Source of the DNA: Nitrosopumilaceae archaeon
GTDB lineage: Archaea; Thermoproteota; Nitrososphaeria; Nitrososphaerales; Nitrosopumilaceae
Length of the DNA stretch: 49,312 nt
Assembly (NCBI GenBank): GCA_011523285.1
Contig: WTHC01000054.1
Span: 1-49,312 of the forward strand
Direction: 5' to 3'
Both the position numbers and the translations under genes were made by a program. The notes under the pieces are model-generated. The model was not told the origin of the DNA and ran no database searches. It worked only from the letters and a program-made list of their open reading frames with translations. Below, one piece after another: positions 2,294 to 18,618 of this stretch (position 1 is the first letter of the stretch; every line of letters begins with the position of its first letter).

Positions 2294-3454
2294 ACGTTCA
2301 TAAAAAATTCAACACACGTCAATAAATTTGCAAAAATAATATTTGATGATGGTACAATAATTAATGGTATAGGATTTGGATATCCTAAAACTGTATTTGG
2401 AGAGATGGTATTCAATACAGGAATGGTAGGCTATGTAGAATCTATGACAGATCCATCTTATAATGGACAAATTCTCACCTTCACATACCCACTTATAGGT
2501 AATTATGGAGTTCCTAATATTAGTACAAAAGATGAAAATGGGATTGAAAAACATATAGAATCAGATAGAATTCAAGTAAAAGGAATAGTCATACACGATT
2601 TGTCTTTAGTTTCCAATCATTGGAGTTCAGTTATGACATTAGACGAATGGTTGTATAAAGAACAAATTCCAGGAATATATAATGTAGATACAAGAAAATT
2701 AACAAAAAAACTCAGGGAAGATGGCGTGACGATGTGTGCTTTAGTTGTTAGTGATTCAGATAATGTAAATATTGAAGACATACAAACCAAATTAAAAAAA
2801 ACTGTGAATTACAACAACAAAAATTTTATGGAGTATGTTTCCACTAAAAAAATACAAATCATTGGAGACACAAACTCAAATGTTGTTATAATCGATACAG
2901 GAACAAAAAATTCTATTTTGAGAAACATAATAGACATAAAATATGGAATTATAAAGATGCCATGGAATACAAAAGTTGAAAAGATTTTATCGTACAAACC
3001 AAATGGTGTCATCATAAGTAACGGGCCTGGAGATCCAAAAATATGTGCAGATACCATAAAAACAGCTAATATTTTGTTGGAATACAATATGCCAGTTCTA
3101 GGAATTTGTCTAGGCGCTCAAATTTTAGCTTTAGCTGACCATGCCAAAACATATAAATTGAAATATGGTCACAGAAGCCAAAATAAACCTTGTATAAATA
3201 TAGATGATTCGCGTACATATATCACAAGTCAAAACCATGGATACTGTATAGATCGTGAATCTTTAAAAAATTCTGAATTCAGATTATGGTTTATTAATGC
3301 AGATGATAAAACAGTAGAGGGGATAAAACATAAAAAAAATAAATCTATCGCAGTACAATTTCATCCAGAAGCTGCACCAGGACCTTATGATTGTAAATAT
3401 ATTTTTGATACATTCAAAAAAATTATGGAGGAAAATAAAAACTGTCCAAAATAA
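2294..3454 (+). CDS. carA: Carbamoyl-phosphate synthase small subunit; start codon unclear
   Basis: Glutaminase subunit that supplies ammonia to CarB for carbamoyl phosphate (pyrimidine and arginine synthesis). The N-terminal small-subunit domain (FDDGT, GEMVFNTGMVGY, LTFTYPLIGNYG) is followed by a class I amidotransferase domain with oxyanion motif GPGDPK, nucleophile motif GICLGAQ and the FHPEA His-Glu pair, so the catalytic residues are present. Homology clearly starts upstream of the first ATG (2405), yet no ATG, GTG or TTG lies between the in-frame TAG at 2282 and that ATG. The coordinate given is an ACG six nt after GAGG (2284-2287); ATA at 2291 is another candidate. A TATA-like ATTTAAAT lies at 2256-2263. 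Confidence 0.9.
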   Translation, partial: TFIKNSTHVNKFAKIIFDDGTIINGIGFGYPKTVFGEMVFNTGMVGYVESMTDPSYNGQILTFTYPLIGNYGVPNISTKDENGIEKHIESDRIQVKGIVIHDLSLVSNHWSSVMTLDEWLYKEQIPGIYNVDTRKLTKKLREDGVTMCALVVSDSDNVNIEDIQTKLKKTVNYNNKNFMEYVSTKKIQIIGDTNSNVVIIDTGTKNSILRNIIDIKYGIIKMPWNTKVEKILSYKPNGVIISNGPGDPKICADTIKTANILLEYNMPVLGICLGAQILALADHAKTYKLKYGHRSQNKPCINIDDSRTYITSQNHGYCIDRESLKNSEFRLWFINADDKTVEGIKHKKNKSIAVQFHPEAAPGPYDCKYIFDTFKKIMEENKNCPK

Positions 3455-6400
3455 AAAATATTAAAAAAATACTAGTGCTAGGCAGTGGGGCAATTAAAAT
3501 CGGAGAAGCTGGCGAAAGTCATTAAGGTGGCCGTCAATTCGATTACTCCGGTAGTCAATGCCTCAAGGCAATAATAGAAGATGGAATAAAAACAGTGTTA
3601 GTCAATCCAAACATTGCAACAATCCAAACAGATGCAAAATTTGCTGATAAAATATACTTATTACCAGTGACAACAGAATATGTAAATCGAGTGATAGAAA
3701 AAGAAAGACCAGATGGAGTAATGCTAGGTTTTGGAGGTCAAACTGCTTTAAATTGCGGTGTAAATCTTTCAGATTGTGGATCTATAAAAAAATACGGCAT
3801 CAATGTACTAGGCACTAAAATAGATAGTATCAAAATTAGTGAAGATAGACAACTTTTCAAAGAAGCTATGTCCAATTGCAATGTGCCAACTCTTGAAAGT
3901 GAAGCCGTGGAATCATTTCAAGATGCTAAAATTGTAGCCAAGAGATTAAACTATCCAGTTATCATAAGAGTAGCATATACATTAGGAGGACGAGGTGGCG
4001 GAGTTGCACGAAATGAAATAGAACTATACGAGATAGTAAATAGAGGAATAAATGCAAGTATGGTAGGCCAAGTGTTAATAGAGAAATACATTGGAAATTG
4101 GAAGCAGATAGAATACGAAATAATGAGAGACAGTAACAAAAATAGTATAACTATTTGTAATATGGAGAATATTTTGGCTATGAAAGTGCATACTGGAGAT
4201 AATATAGTAGTAGCTCCATCACAGACAATAAATAATTCAGAATATCATTTACTAAGATCTGCATCTATACGTGCAGCAGATCATGTAAATATTATTGGAG
4301 AATGTAATGTTCAATTTGCATTAGATACACATTCTTCAAAATATGTAGCAATAGAAATGAACCCAAGATTATCACGTTCCTCAGCACTTGCTAGTAAAGC
4401 TACTGGATATCCTATTGCATATATGTCTGCAAAAATTAATTTAGGATATACTTTAGATGAACTACAAAATAACATTACTAAAAAAACTACTGCATGTTTT
4501 GAACCATCACTAGATTATATAGTTTGTAAACATCCACGTTGGGATTTTAATAAATTTGAATTTGCAAGTAAAAAGCTTGGGACCACCATGAAATCCACTG
4601 GAGAAGTTATGTCTATAGGCAGAACATTTGAAGAAGCTTTACAAAAAGCAATAAGAATGCTCGATATAAATAAAGACGGATTAGTACTTAACAAATATGA
4701 CAAAGATATTGACGACGAAGAAGATATAGAAAACCATTTGATGAATCCAGATAATTCTATATTATATTATATTGCTGCTGCAATTAAGAAAAAAATACCA
4801 ATAGAAAAAATTTCAAGACTATCATCAGTGGATCCATGGTTTATAAATAAAATTAAAAATATTGTAGAGTTAGAGAATAAATTAATTCGTAACAAACTTG
4901 ATATGAAGTTACTACGTGAAGTCAAAAAACGTGGTTTTTCAGACAGACAAATAGCCAGAGCAACTAACATAAGTGAGTATAATGTAAGACAAACTAGAAA
5001 ACAAATCGGAGTTGTACCAGTAGTAAAACGAATAGATACATTATCAGCAGAATGGCCTACTCAAACAAATTACTTATATTTAACATATGGGGGGGACAAA
5101 AATGATTTTCAAATAACAAATGGTGGAAGTATAATAGTTTTAGGTGCAGGTCCATACAGGATTGGAAGTAGTGTAGAATTTGACTGGGGCACTGTAAATA
5201 TGGTGTTTGGTTTACAAGAAAATGGTGAAAAAAATGTCAGTGTTATAAATTGCAATCCAGAAACTGTGTCAACTGATTATGATATATGTGAACGCCTTTA
5301 TTTTGAAGAATTAACAATAGAAAGAATTTTAGACATAATAGAATTTGAAAAATCGAAAGGAGTCGTAACATCTGTAGGAGGTCAAATTGCAAACAACTTA
5401 ACTTTACAACTGCATAAAAATGATGTTAATATAATAGGCACAGAGCCTATTAATATAGATAAAGCTGAAGATAGATCTAAATTTAGTAGCATTCTAGATA
5501 GATTAAATATATTACAACCAGCTTGGAAAAAGTTTTCAGATTTGGAAGAGTCTCTAGAATTTGCAAAATTTGTCAAATATCCAATAATCGCACGTCCATC
5601 ATACGTTTTGAGTGGCGCATCTATGAAAGTAGTATGGTCTGAAAACGATTTAAAAAAATATTTTAAGCAAGCTGTGATTTCATTAGAGTATCCTGTGGTA
5701 ATTTCTAAATATATTACTAATGCATTAGAAGTAGATGTAGATGGAGTTTCAGATACAAAAAATGTCATAATTGGATCAATTATCGAACATGTAGATAATG
5801 CAGGCATACATTCTGGAGATGCTATGATGTGCATACCACCAAGAAGGCTAGACAAAATAACAATTGATAAGATTATTCAACATACAAAAAATATAGCAAT
5901 AGAATTCAAAGTTAAAGGTCCATTTAATATACAATTCATTGTTATCAACAAATTAGTATACGTAATAGAATTAAATATAAGGGCGTCAAGATCAATGCCA
6001 TTTGTATCAAAATTAAAGAATATTAATTTAGTAAAACTTGCAGCACAAGCCATTTTGAATAAGCCGTTACAAGAAATAACATGCAAAAATAATAACAAAA
6101 ATTTTGAATTCGGTGTCAAAATACCACAATTTTCATTCATGCAATTAGACGGAGCGGATATAACATTGGGTGTAGAAATGCAATCTACAGGAGAAGTAGC
6201 ATGTTTAGGACATAGTTTTTATGATGCAATATCAAAAGGGTTAATTGCTGCAGGATATAAATTACCAAAAAATGGTTGCGTCATAGTGATTATGGATCAT
6301 AACAATATTAAAGATGAGAGAATTCTAAAATCCATAATGATATTACATGATATTGGCTTTACTATATTAACTACAAGAATAATTAGAAAAATTTTATTAC

Positions 6401-6696
6401 AGAAGCTAAATGATGATAGAAATGATAATATAAAAGATTTGGATATCCAACAACATAACGTAATAGAATTATTGTATCAGAAAAAAATAGACATGGTAAT
6501 TAATATATCAAATACAATGCAAACAACAAGAAATGATAAAATCATCAATGAAGAATATCAAATTAGACGTAAAGCTTTAGAATTAGGCATTCCTGTGTTA
6601 ACTACAATTCAAATTATGGAAGTATTTATAAAGACATTGCAGTGGAGAAATAAGAAGAAAAAAACCTCGATACAGCCATTGAACTTTGAAATATAG
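3442..6696 (+). CDS. carB: Carbamoyl-phosphate synthase large subunit, with in-frame TAA in a 21-nt insertion
   Basis: Forms carbamoyl phosphate from bicarbonate, ATP and ammonia with CarA. Two ATP-grasp halves (first IIRVAYTLGGRGGG, second IIARPSYVLSGASM), the oligomerisation linker and a C-terminal MGS-like allosteric domain are present. The N-terminal LGSGAIKIGEAGE lies in frame upstream and is interrupted at 3517-3537 by seven extra codons containing TAA (3523-3525) before FDYSGSQ resumes. Downstream, the frame is open for about 1050 codons with no sign of decay. No ATG, GTG or TTG fits the true N-terminus. The CTG at 3442, ten nt after GGAGG (3427-3431), is the best guess and overlaps the carA end. 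A downstream GTG (3595) would delete the first nucleotide-binding segment. Confidence 0.85.
3517..3537 (+). other. 21-nt in-frame insertion with stop codon inside carB
   Basis: Between GGC GAA and TTC GAT TAC, which are adjacent in the CarB family (GEFDYSG), seven extra codons read S-H-stop-G-G-R-Q. Nearly half the bases are G or C (10 of 21), well above the surroundings. The segment carries an imperfect direct repeat, GTCATT near its left end and GTCAATT across its right end. Removing it restores a continuous frame. Confidence 0.75.
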
Positions 6697-6930
6697 AATC
6701 ATATAACATTATTTATTATTGTTTCATCACCTATTATTGTTCCATCTAATGATACGATTTTAGCTGATAAGTATTTAGTTCGTCTTAAAATTGGTGAATT
6801 AGATTTACGATTAAATTTTCGAGATACATTACGAAAATATTTATTGAAAGATGGGATAATAGTTATTTCCAAAAGTCCAGACATAGAAGGGAATAGACAA
6901 TCTTTATTAGTTTTTATAGAGACCCAAACT
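6586..6930. repeat. Tandem duplication, copy 1 (345 bp)
   Basis: Copy 1 holds the last 37 codons of carB including the stop, the 2-bp gap, and the antisense C-terminal part of the neighbouring phosphoesterase. It appears identical base for base to 6931-7275. Both copies begin with GGCATTCC, and the same 8 bp recur just after copy 2 (7276-7283), as expected from duplication between short homologies. Confidence 0.95.
6699..6930 (-). pseudogene. Duplicated C-terminal fragment of the metallophosphoesterase
   Basis: Antisense reading of copy 1 gives the last 77 codons of the phosphoesterase encoded at 7044-7781, without its catalytic motifs. It arose from the 345-bp tandem duplication. An ATG at the junction (6935) could in principle start a 78-residue peptide, but nothing suggests that this is expressed. 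Confidence 0.85.
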
Positions 6931-7041
6931 GGCATTCCTGTGTTAACTACAATTCAAATTATGGAAGTATTTATAAAGACATTGCAGTGGAGAAATAAGA
7001 AGAAAAAAACCTCGATACAGCCATTGAACTTTGAAATATAG
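6931..7041 (+). pseudogene. Duplicated C-terminal tail of carB
   Basis: Copy 2 repeats the last 36 residues and stop of CarB (from GIPVLTTIQ onward). It is fused in frame only to antisense phosphoesterase sequence upstream, so it is a by-product of the tandem duplication and not a gene. Confidence 0.85.
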
Positions 7042-7275
7042 AATCATATAACATTATTTATTATTGTTTCATCACCTATTATTGTTCCATCTAATGATAC
7101 GATTTTAGCTGATAAGTATTTAGTTCGTCTTAAAATTGGTGAATTAGATTTACGATTAAATTTTCGAGATACATTACGAAAATATTTATTGAAAGATGGG
7201 ATAATAGTTATTTCCAAAAGTCCAGACATAGAAGGGAATAGACAATCTTTATTAGTTTTTATAGAGACCCAAACT
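6931..7275. repeat. Tandem duplication, copy 2 (345 bp)
   Basis: Second copy, directly abutting the first, with no difference seen. It carries a spare carB tail (6931-7041), while its antisense strand supplies the C-terminus of the intact phosphoesterase. Because the segment spans the ends of two convergent genes, neither full-length gene is disrupted. Confidence 0.95.
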
Positions 7276-7781
7276 GGCATTCCATTTAAGATAGATTTGT
7301 CACTAAAAAATGTAGGATGTATGTGACCCATAATAATTTTGTCTACATTTAGATTTGTAGATGGTTTGACATGGCCATGCGTCAATAATATTTTATCTAT
7401 TATTAGTCCCATAGAGCTTGTTACAGTTATTTCTCGAGGTAACAAATTTTGTATGTTACCATCATGGTTTCCAGGTATTAGTATGACGTTAGTTTTTTTT
7501 GTTATTTTCTCAAAAAAAAAAGCTATATCATTTTGTTCATTTGTAGATATATCATATATACTAGATTTGACATCACCTAATATTATTAATGAATTTGGTT
7601 TTGTGTCATTAATTATGTTTTCAACATCTTGAGTTATATCTTTTATAGCTCTAGATATATGATCGTTATTTGCTATAAATGCATTTTCAAATCCAATATG
7701 TAGATCAGAAATAATTAATTTTTTTTTACTCCCTTCCAAAATTAGTGCAGGTTTAAATGGAACTATTCTTAATTCATACAT
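7044..7781 (-). CDS. Calcineurin-like metallophosphoesterase
   Basis: About 245 residues with the two-metal phosphoesterase motif set in order: SDLHIG, LGDVK, PGNHDG, THGH and MGHIHP. This resembles the archaeal MJ0037-like phosphoesterases, of unknown substrate, probably a nucleotide or nucleic acid. I chose the ATG at 7781 (MYELRIV) over one six codons upstream because a TATA-like TAATTTAA (7802-7809) is centred about 25 nt before it. The C-terminal 77 codons lie inside duplication copy 2. It converges on carB and diverges from the SWIM gene through a symmetrical promoter. Confidence 0.82.
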   Translation of the reverse strand: MYELRIVPFKPALILEGSKKKLIISDLHIGFENAFIANNDHISRAIKDITQDVENIINDTKPNSLIILGDVKSSIYDISTNEQNDIAFFFEKITKKTNVILIPGNHDGNIQNLLPREITVTSSMGLIIDKILLTHGHVKPSTNLNVDKIIMGHIHPTFFSDKSILNGMPVWVSIKTNKDCLFPSMSGLLEITIIPSFNKYFRNVSRKFNRKSNSPILRRTKYLSAKIVSLDGTIIGDETIINNVI

Positions 7782-7826
7782 AATAATATACTTTATCAAT
7801 TAGTTAAATTAGTATGTATGAATTAA
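7769..7826. promoter_or_regulatory. Divergent promoter flanked by a 14-bp inverted repeat
   Basis: The arms at 7769-7782 and 7813-7826 are perfect inverted copies of tATGTATGAATTAA. Each arm contains the start codon of one divergent gene, so both proteins begin Met-Tyr-Glu-Leu. The 30-bp core holds two TATA-like boxes, ataatata (7783-7790) for the plus-strand gene and TAATTTAA (7802-7809, minus strand) for the other, each about 25-27 nt from its start. This fits two leaderless transcripts and possible co-regulation. Confidence 0.65.
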
Positions 7827-17295: not shown

Positions 17296-17779
17296 TGTCC
17301 AAGTTTTGAACTAATTTGACTATATTGATTACTTTATTGATATTAATTGGAAATCTATTTGTCCAACGTCCAGAGATTATCACACGTGTTTTTTGGATAC
17401 CGCCAGGAACCCAAACAGAATTAATAGATATTATTTTGGTAGGAAAAAAAAGATCTTCAATAAATTTTTTATATGTAGTTTGAGTTTCAACCAACCAAAT
17501 TTTTCCTGTAAAAGAATCTTGAATCAATCTATAAAGTGTTCTACTTTGTCTTATTGCATTTATATCATCTTTAGATAAATATAATAAATAATCATCATCT
17601 AGTTTTTGGCATTTTGTTAATGTAAATTTATCTATTTGTGTATTAGTTTTTCCTAATTGTGCTAATTTAATAGATGCATCTACATCAGACCTTGTAATTT
17701 TACCAGAGTCCAGTCTAGATTCGCACTGTGGGCATAGAATTGCATTTTTTGCGTCGAATCCGCATATTGGTAGCTGCAT
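17258..17779 (-). CDS. KH-like RNA-binding protein with degenerate zinc finger
   Basis: A 173-residue protein upstream of, and overlapping, aspS. The N-terminus resembles an archaeal family with a four-cysteine CxxC...CxxC ribbon, but here only Cys6, Cys16 and Cys19 remain and the residue expected to be the fourth Cys is Asp9. The C-terminal half (SVWVPGGIQKTRVIISG, then a helix-strand) looks like a NusA-type KH fold. A role in RNA or transcription is inferred. The family assignment is moderate. Confidence 0.6.
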   Translation of the reverse strand: MQLPICGFDAKNAILCPQCESRLDSGKITRSDVDASIKLAQLGKTNTQIDKFTLTKCQKLDDDYLLYLSKDDINAIRQSRTLYRLIQDSFTGKIWLVETQTTYKKFIEDLFFPTKIISINSVWVPGGIQKTRVIISGRWTNRFPININKVINIVKLVQNLDIEIEFEESRKQK

Positions 17780-17973
17780 ATATTAAAATTATTATCATAT
17801 AAAGTTGAATATATCCTTTCGTAAATATGATTGTCATATAGATTACAATATTGAAAATATTTAGATCATAATCCATATTATAATTACATATGATTTTTAT
17901 GATGATGTAATCTAATATGTTGTTTATTAATACAAAATTTGTATATAATAGTTTTAATTAAATAATACAATAT

Positions 17974-18618
17974 GTGAATCAGATTGTGAGTTTTCTTGAT
18001 TTATTTCCACTGCTTCACGATGTAGGTTATGTGGGTCTAGCAATGATTAGTTTTTTTGGTTCATTGATACCATTTGTTCCAATCCCATCATTTTTGCTTT
18101 TGGCTACCATGGCTACCGGAAATCATTTTGATCTTAATATATTAGCCATTTTGTCTGCGATTACAGCATCTATTGCTAAGCAAATAATTTTTTATGCGAG
18201 CTATGGTGGAAGAAAAATCATCAATGAAAAGATAAGAAAAAGAATGCGTCCATTTGAACGTCTTGTGAAAAGATATGGTGCAGTCGCTGCGTTTATAGCA
18301 GCTGCATCTCCAATTCCTGACGATTTGATATACATACCTTTGGGGTTAGCTAGATACAATCCATTAAAATTTTTTATAGCTACATTTACTGGTAAAATTG
18401 TTCTAAGCTACACAGTAGTATTGATTTCTCATTTTTTTGGATATTCCATATTAGATCCCATTATAGAAAACACAGACAATACTAATGTTATTTATTTTGG
18501 TGTGTTTTCATTTATATTTTTACTGTCAATTTCTATTGTACTTATTTTGAAGTTGGATTGGTCTAGAATACTTGGTAAAATTGCACCTTGGACATTAAAC
18601 AAAGATGATGAAGATTAA
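17974..18618 (+). CDS. VTT/DedA-like membrane protein
   Basis: A 214-residue integral membrane protein of the VTT (SNARE-associated, YqaA/DedA-like) family. Hydrophobic segments fall near residues 15-35, 40-65, 100-125, 135-155 and 170-195. The family's conserved Gly/Arg-containing re-entrant region appears as AAASPIPDDLIYIPLGLARY. Relatives act in lipid transport or membrane homeostasis. The start is GTG, 27 nt after tatataat (17942-17949). It overlaps the convergent glycosylase gene by 4 nt. Confidence 0.78.
   Translation: MNQIVSFLDLFPLLHDVGYVGLAMISFFGSLIPFVPIPSFLLLATMATGNHFDLNILAILSAITASIAKQIIFYASYGGRKIINEKIRKRMRPFERLVKRYGAVAAFIAAASPIPDDLIYIPLGLARYNPLKFFIATFTGKIVLSYTVVLISHFFGYSILDPIIENTDNTNVIYFGVFSFIFLLSISIVLILKLDWSRILGKIAPWTLNKDDED

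Follow-up and report, generated by a model that had tools for sequence, protein, structure and literature searches.

We identified a perfect tandem duplication of 345 bp in the genome assembly of an uncultured Nitrosopumilaceae archaeon, at the point where the 3' ends of carB and a metallophosphoesterase gene converge. The duplication lies in contig WTHC01000054.1 (C11 in our numbering), whose whole length of 49,312 nucleotides was analyzed and is referred to here as the window. It is probably a small and recent tandem duplication, formed between two direct repeats of 8 bp and carried by all or most of the archaeal cells sampled. From the sequences described below we infer its presence in real cells, a copy number of two and a polymerase-slip mechanism. 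The features of the locus are as follows (window coordinates):

3454..6696, plus strand: carB, carbamoyl-phosphate synthase large subunit (TIGR01369, 1311 bits; start position approximate)
6586..6593: left homology GGCATTCC, encoding Gly-Ile-Pro of carB
6586..6930: copy 1 of the 345-bp unit, with the carB 3' end, a 2-bp intergenic gap and the phosphoesterase 3' end
6699..6935, minus strand: orphan phosphoesterase tail, a 78-aa frame
6931..6938: GGCATTCC at the novel junction
6931..7041, plus strand: orphan carB tail, part of a 65-aa frame at 6844-7041
6931..7275: second copy of the 345-bp unit, matching the first at every base
7044..7787, minus strand: metallophosphoesterase (PF00149), with its whole 3' end from copy 2
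7276..7283: right homology GGCATTCC, encoding Gly-Met-Pro of the phosphoesterase on the minus strand
Junction sequence diagnostic of the duplication: AAACTGGCATTCCTGTG
Flank sequences (window 6400-7500): TTAGGCATTCCTGTG and AAACTGGCATTCCATTT

Structure of the duplication

The two copies adjoin head-to-tail, without spacer, and are followed by a third GGCATTCC, so that the same word is common to the left edge, the junction and the right edge. An exact-repeat script found positions 6586-6938 to be identical to 6931-7283 (353 bp at a distance of 345), and Tandem Repeats Finder reported 6586-7283 with period 345, 2.0 copies, 100% matches and no indels. The coordinates given in a preliminary description of this DNA were thus exact, including the return of the 8-bp homology at 7276, and its reading of the two words in the proteins was also right: the left one encodes the G-I-P of ALELGIPV in carB, and the right one, on the minus strand, the G-M-P of LNGMPVW in the phosphoesterase. 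A search of the organism's own genome (826,649 bp in 54 contigs) found the 345-bp unit at these two places only. The 353-bp match is the longest exact direct repeat in the 621,042 bases of this genome examined, and chance cannot produce a repeat of this length.

The runner-up in the same bases is a 294-bp exact direct repeat in contig C48 (L171; 4151-4444 and 5072-5365, 921 bp apart). It corresponds to the shared 3' ends of two neighbouring genes with differing 5' parts, and their sequences point to a recent conversion or partial duplication.

Junction homology and proposed mechanism

The preliminary description had noted an 8-bp homology at the junction, and the statistics support an event at short homology. 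When breakpoint pairs 100-1000 bp apart were drawn at random on a single-copy form derived from the window, 0.05% of 200,000 draws shared at least 8 bp (P ~5e-4). The surroundings of the locus contain 80 direct repeats of at least 8 bp at 100-1000 bp spacing, among which GGCATTCC is the sole one with a G+C content of at least 0.5 (the G+C content of the window is 0.297). Such a G+C-rich, strongly pairing word in A+T-rich sequence argues that the junction formed by base pairing, whether in the cell or in the tube, rather than by a random join.

We propose that, in the course of replication or repair, a 3' end lying at the right-hand GGCATTCC would have paired with the left-hand GGCATTCC 345 bp upstream, slipping or switching template from one short direct repeat to the other, and that the segment would then have been copied a second time. 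Loss of recombination genes was considered as a cause and rejected, as RadA and NurA were found in all three genomes of the genus; with both present, later expansion or loss of the duplication by recombination would be possible. A scan of viral contigs for the junction pattern gave 0 matches, a result of little weight. Insertion of a mobile element with target-site duplication was also rejected, since the repeated segment consists of host gene ends and contains no foreign insert.

The locus in related genomes

A search of 60 relatives yielded two genomes of the same genus (G001 and G002) and no second strain of the species. The locus is single-copy in both, where assembled: the carB tail runs into the phosphoesterase tail once in L024, and once, in the reverse direction, in L023. 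In a wider set of 80 related loci from GTDB genomes, the phosphoesterase was found in 67, always convergent with carB, the gap between the two stops having a median of 13 bp and being at most 60 bp in 54 of the 67. The other 13 loci had no phosphoesterase match, some of them because the locus ends soon after carB. An additional match to the carB tail or to the phosphoesterase tail was found in none of the 80. The ancestral state is therefore a single copy. Judged from these sequences, the convergent arrangement is shared across the family and the duplication is seen in this assembly only; we rejected the possibility that it is a conserved feature of the locus. Together with the zero divergence between copies, the single copy in both same-genus genomes and the lack of extra tails in the related loci support the earlier suggestion of a recent event.

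Contigs of both same-genus assemblies end near this place. Contig C3 of G001 ends inside the phosphoesterase gene, at approximately window position 7413, and overlaps C4 by exactly 55 bp; contig C59 of G002 ends at approximately 6564. The first 209 bases of another G002 contig, C21 (L144, L038), are unrelated: the carB homology leaves at approximately window position 6376, and the carB tail is on C59, reflecting either a rearrangement or a misassembly. A genus-wide break-prone hotspot was set aside as an explanation for these contig ends, given that the places differ, that G002 is in many pieces and that the coincidence was noticed post hoc.

Assembly features and alternative origins of the second copy

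The assembly carrying the duplication is short-read-like: exact repeats of 55 bp occur at its contig ends and next to 100-N gaps, and it looks like the product of a de Bruijn assembler with k = 55. A two-copy repeat of 345 bp is consequently resolved only indirectly. Most of the exact 55-bp repeats are natural protein repeats (contigs C2, C22, C35, C36 and C40, classed by reading the sequences and their translations). Three are not of this kind and are left as direct self-loops, each located at a contig end or next to a 100-N gap, in genes without internal repeats:

C6 (L129), 891-1208: period 263 bp
C39 (L162), 1-550, inside ilvC: period 495 bp
C45 (L168), 17668-18413: period 691 bp

Judging from the translations, the C45 loop reaches from the end of a gene resembling inositol-phosphate synthase into the start of one resembling SMC. 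The C45 locus has one match each in G001 and G002; the C39 locus has one match in G001 and none found in G002, and the C6 query matched once over its full length in both genomes, with several further short partial matches. The homology at the C6 loop, read from the sequence, is 1 bp; for C39 and C45, comparison with relatives suggests at most 9 and 7 bp, respectively. We infer that these are loops as left by a tandem duplication that the assembler cannot unroll, and they fit real tandem duplications. Another contig of the same genome, C5 (L128), ends in a perfect 54-bp palindrome (2953-3006).

As a control, exact direct repeats of at least 40 bp, at least 100 bp apart, were collected from G001 (10 stretches, 167,207 bases), G002 (18 stretches with sequence out of 22, 128,999 bases) and 79 related loci (748,392 bases). 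Read by eye, they were protein or low-complexity repeats with the exception of L112, although these samples have fewer contig ends than the genome under study and the comparison is loose. In L112 (UYNY03000093.1, 3377-3648), a 10-N gap separates two copies of a 131-bp stretch of carB, a false duplication created where scaffolds were joined.

Base pairing in the tube would produce the same kind of junction if the second copy were an amplification or library chimera, made by a template switch at GGCATTCC (for example during phi29 multiple displacement amplification) and kept by the assembler. In the available text of PMC4595205, phi29 chimeras have overlaps of 5-8 nt and distances that peak at 250-300 nt, measured on inverted chimeras; the 8-bp overlap and the 345-bp distance seen here are similar, within or near these ranges, and the several direct loops in the same assembly could be read in the same way. 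However, the chimeras described there are mostly inverted, so that inverted junctions should prevail if phi29 were responsible, whereas the 90 contig ends gave three direct self-matches, including one natural protein repeat, against one inverted match, a 54-bp palindrome (the numbers are small). We consider a chimera unlikely.

A pure assembly error, in which the segment was doubled by the assembler or scaffolder and no read crosses the junction, seems quite unlikely. The 55-bp repeats and 100-N gaps of this assembly speak for it, as do false duplications in related assemblies such as L112, which is likewise an exact repeat within the carB of a related archaeon. However, the copies in L112 are split by an N gap, whereas the window contains no N, and hence none at the join, and the edges of the duplication coincide with an 8-bp direct repeat, which random breakpoints would rarely do. 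The junction homology is also far shorter than the apparent k of 55, and a de Bruijn assembler should need junction-crossing reads when the homology is far below k.

A selected or functional duplication is highly improbable: the stops are close in most relatives and the duplication puts 345 bp between them, so that it could separate overlapping convergent transcripts or create new small proteins from fused frames, but neither small frame has a Pfam match, none of the related loci has the duplication and the identical copies give no sign of selection.

Consequences for carB and the phosphoesterase

carB runs rightward into copy 1, where it stops at 6696, and the phosphoesterase runs leftward into copy 2, where it stops at 7044; in the single-copy form the two stops are 2 bp apart. 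Both 3' ends are whole because any tandem duplication spanning a convergent gene junction leaves one for each gene. The preliminary description had both genes intact, which holds for the 3' ends (carB through copy 1 and the phosphoesterase through copy 2 align with the single-copy L024 and L023) but not for carB as one frame, which is interrupted near its 5' end by a 21-nt insertion with an in-frame stop. The longest carB frame starts at 3595, and the N-terminal part lies upstream of the in-frame stop, at 3523-3525. The phosphoesterase also matches TIGR00024 (SbcD_rel_arch) with 77.5 bits, below the cut-off of 115.2.

The two gene fragments expected from the earlier description are present between the genes, one tail on each strand, and no Pfam match was found for either the 78-aa frame or the 65-aa frame. 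The duplication has no evident function and probably has none; at most, the tail fragments serve to space the two converging transcripts further apart.

A putative intron in carB

The carB insertion (window 3517-3537, plus strand) contains a TAA and lies inside a conserved GEAGE/FDYSGSQ motif, giving GEAGE-SH*GGRQ-FDYSGSQ. An insertion at the identical point of carB was found in 39 of 81 loci (the window and L044-L123; for example L044, L045 and L047), while 35 read straight through without it and 7 could not be judged. The insertion is 21 nt long in 33 loci, 22 nt in 5 and 23 nt in 1, and each of those read carries a stop or shifts the frame.

In the structure that we propose, the exon sequence GGCG is matched by CGTC, CGCC or CGCT close to the insertion's 3' end, and a separate hairpin is formed by the insertion itself. 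It was scored on 23 of the 39 insertion sequences (20 distinct), the same from which it had been drawn by eye: 95.0% of cells pair, compared to a mean of 92.4 in shuffled sequences, none of 500 shuffles reaching 95.0%. Four pairs are changed on both sides, a number reached by 5 of 500 shuffles, and sliding the partner brings pairing down to 22-53%. One pair out of 14 fails to form in 14 of the 20 distinct sequences, and the fold of the window's own stretch alone is unremarkable (z -1.55). With a 3-nt bulge on one side and a larger internal loop on the other, the motif is relaxed rather than a canonical bulge-helix-bulge. If each side were cut behind its second nucleotide, carB would be back in frame; the same cut rule is described in the accessible part of PMC2738675 for cbf5, an archaeal mRNA intron of 16-44 bp with documented splicing. 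All three genomes of the genus encode the splicing endonuclease EndA. From sequence and predicted pairing, the carB insertion is probably an archaeal BHB-like pre-mRNA intron, and this putative intron is probably of more interest than the tandem duplication.

Comparison with known duplications and implications

The duplication is a known kind of event, an ordinary structural variant. Like the spontaneous tandem duplications of bacteria, it consists of head-to-tail copies with direct-repeat homology at the ends: passages of PMC3411829 report short direct repeats at the ends of spontaneous Salmonella duplications, including candidate junctions of 7 and 9 bp, which are unverified there (the deduced cut-off is 11 bp). 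It differs in size, 345 bp in contrast to the 2.6 to 497 kb of the engineered duplications in the text seen of PMC12607827, and in setting, an assembly from an uncultured archaeon as opposed to a passaged culture. According to the same portion of PMC12607827, short duplications, of 2.6-3.3 kb, disappear very slowly, and short-read assemblies make tandem duplications difficult to recognize. As far as these excerpts and that of PMC4595205 go, an 8-bp junction is possible, its length alone is no proof that a duplication is real, and a short duplication could persist.

A broader reading would put several loci (carB/phosphoesterase, ilvC, INO1-SMC and the 263-bp loop of C6) in copy-number flux at once, in a small-genome lineage that makes or keeps short duplications between 7-9-bp repeats at an unusually high rate; we regard this as decidedly improbable. 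Read support is needed for short tandem copies in metagenome-derived genomes, and the carB/phosphoesterase locus offers one clean junction with which to study the frequency of short duplications between 8-bp repeats in uncultured archaea.
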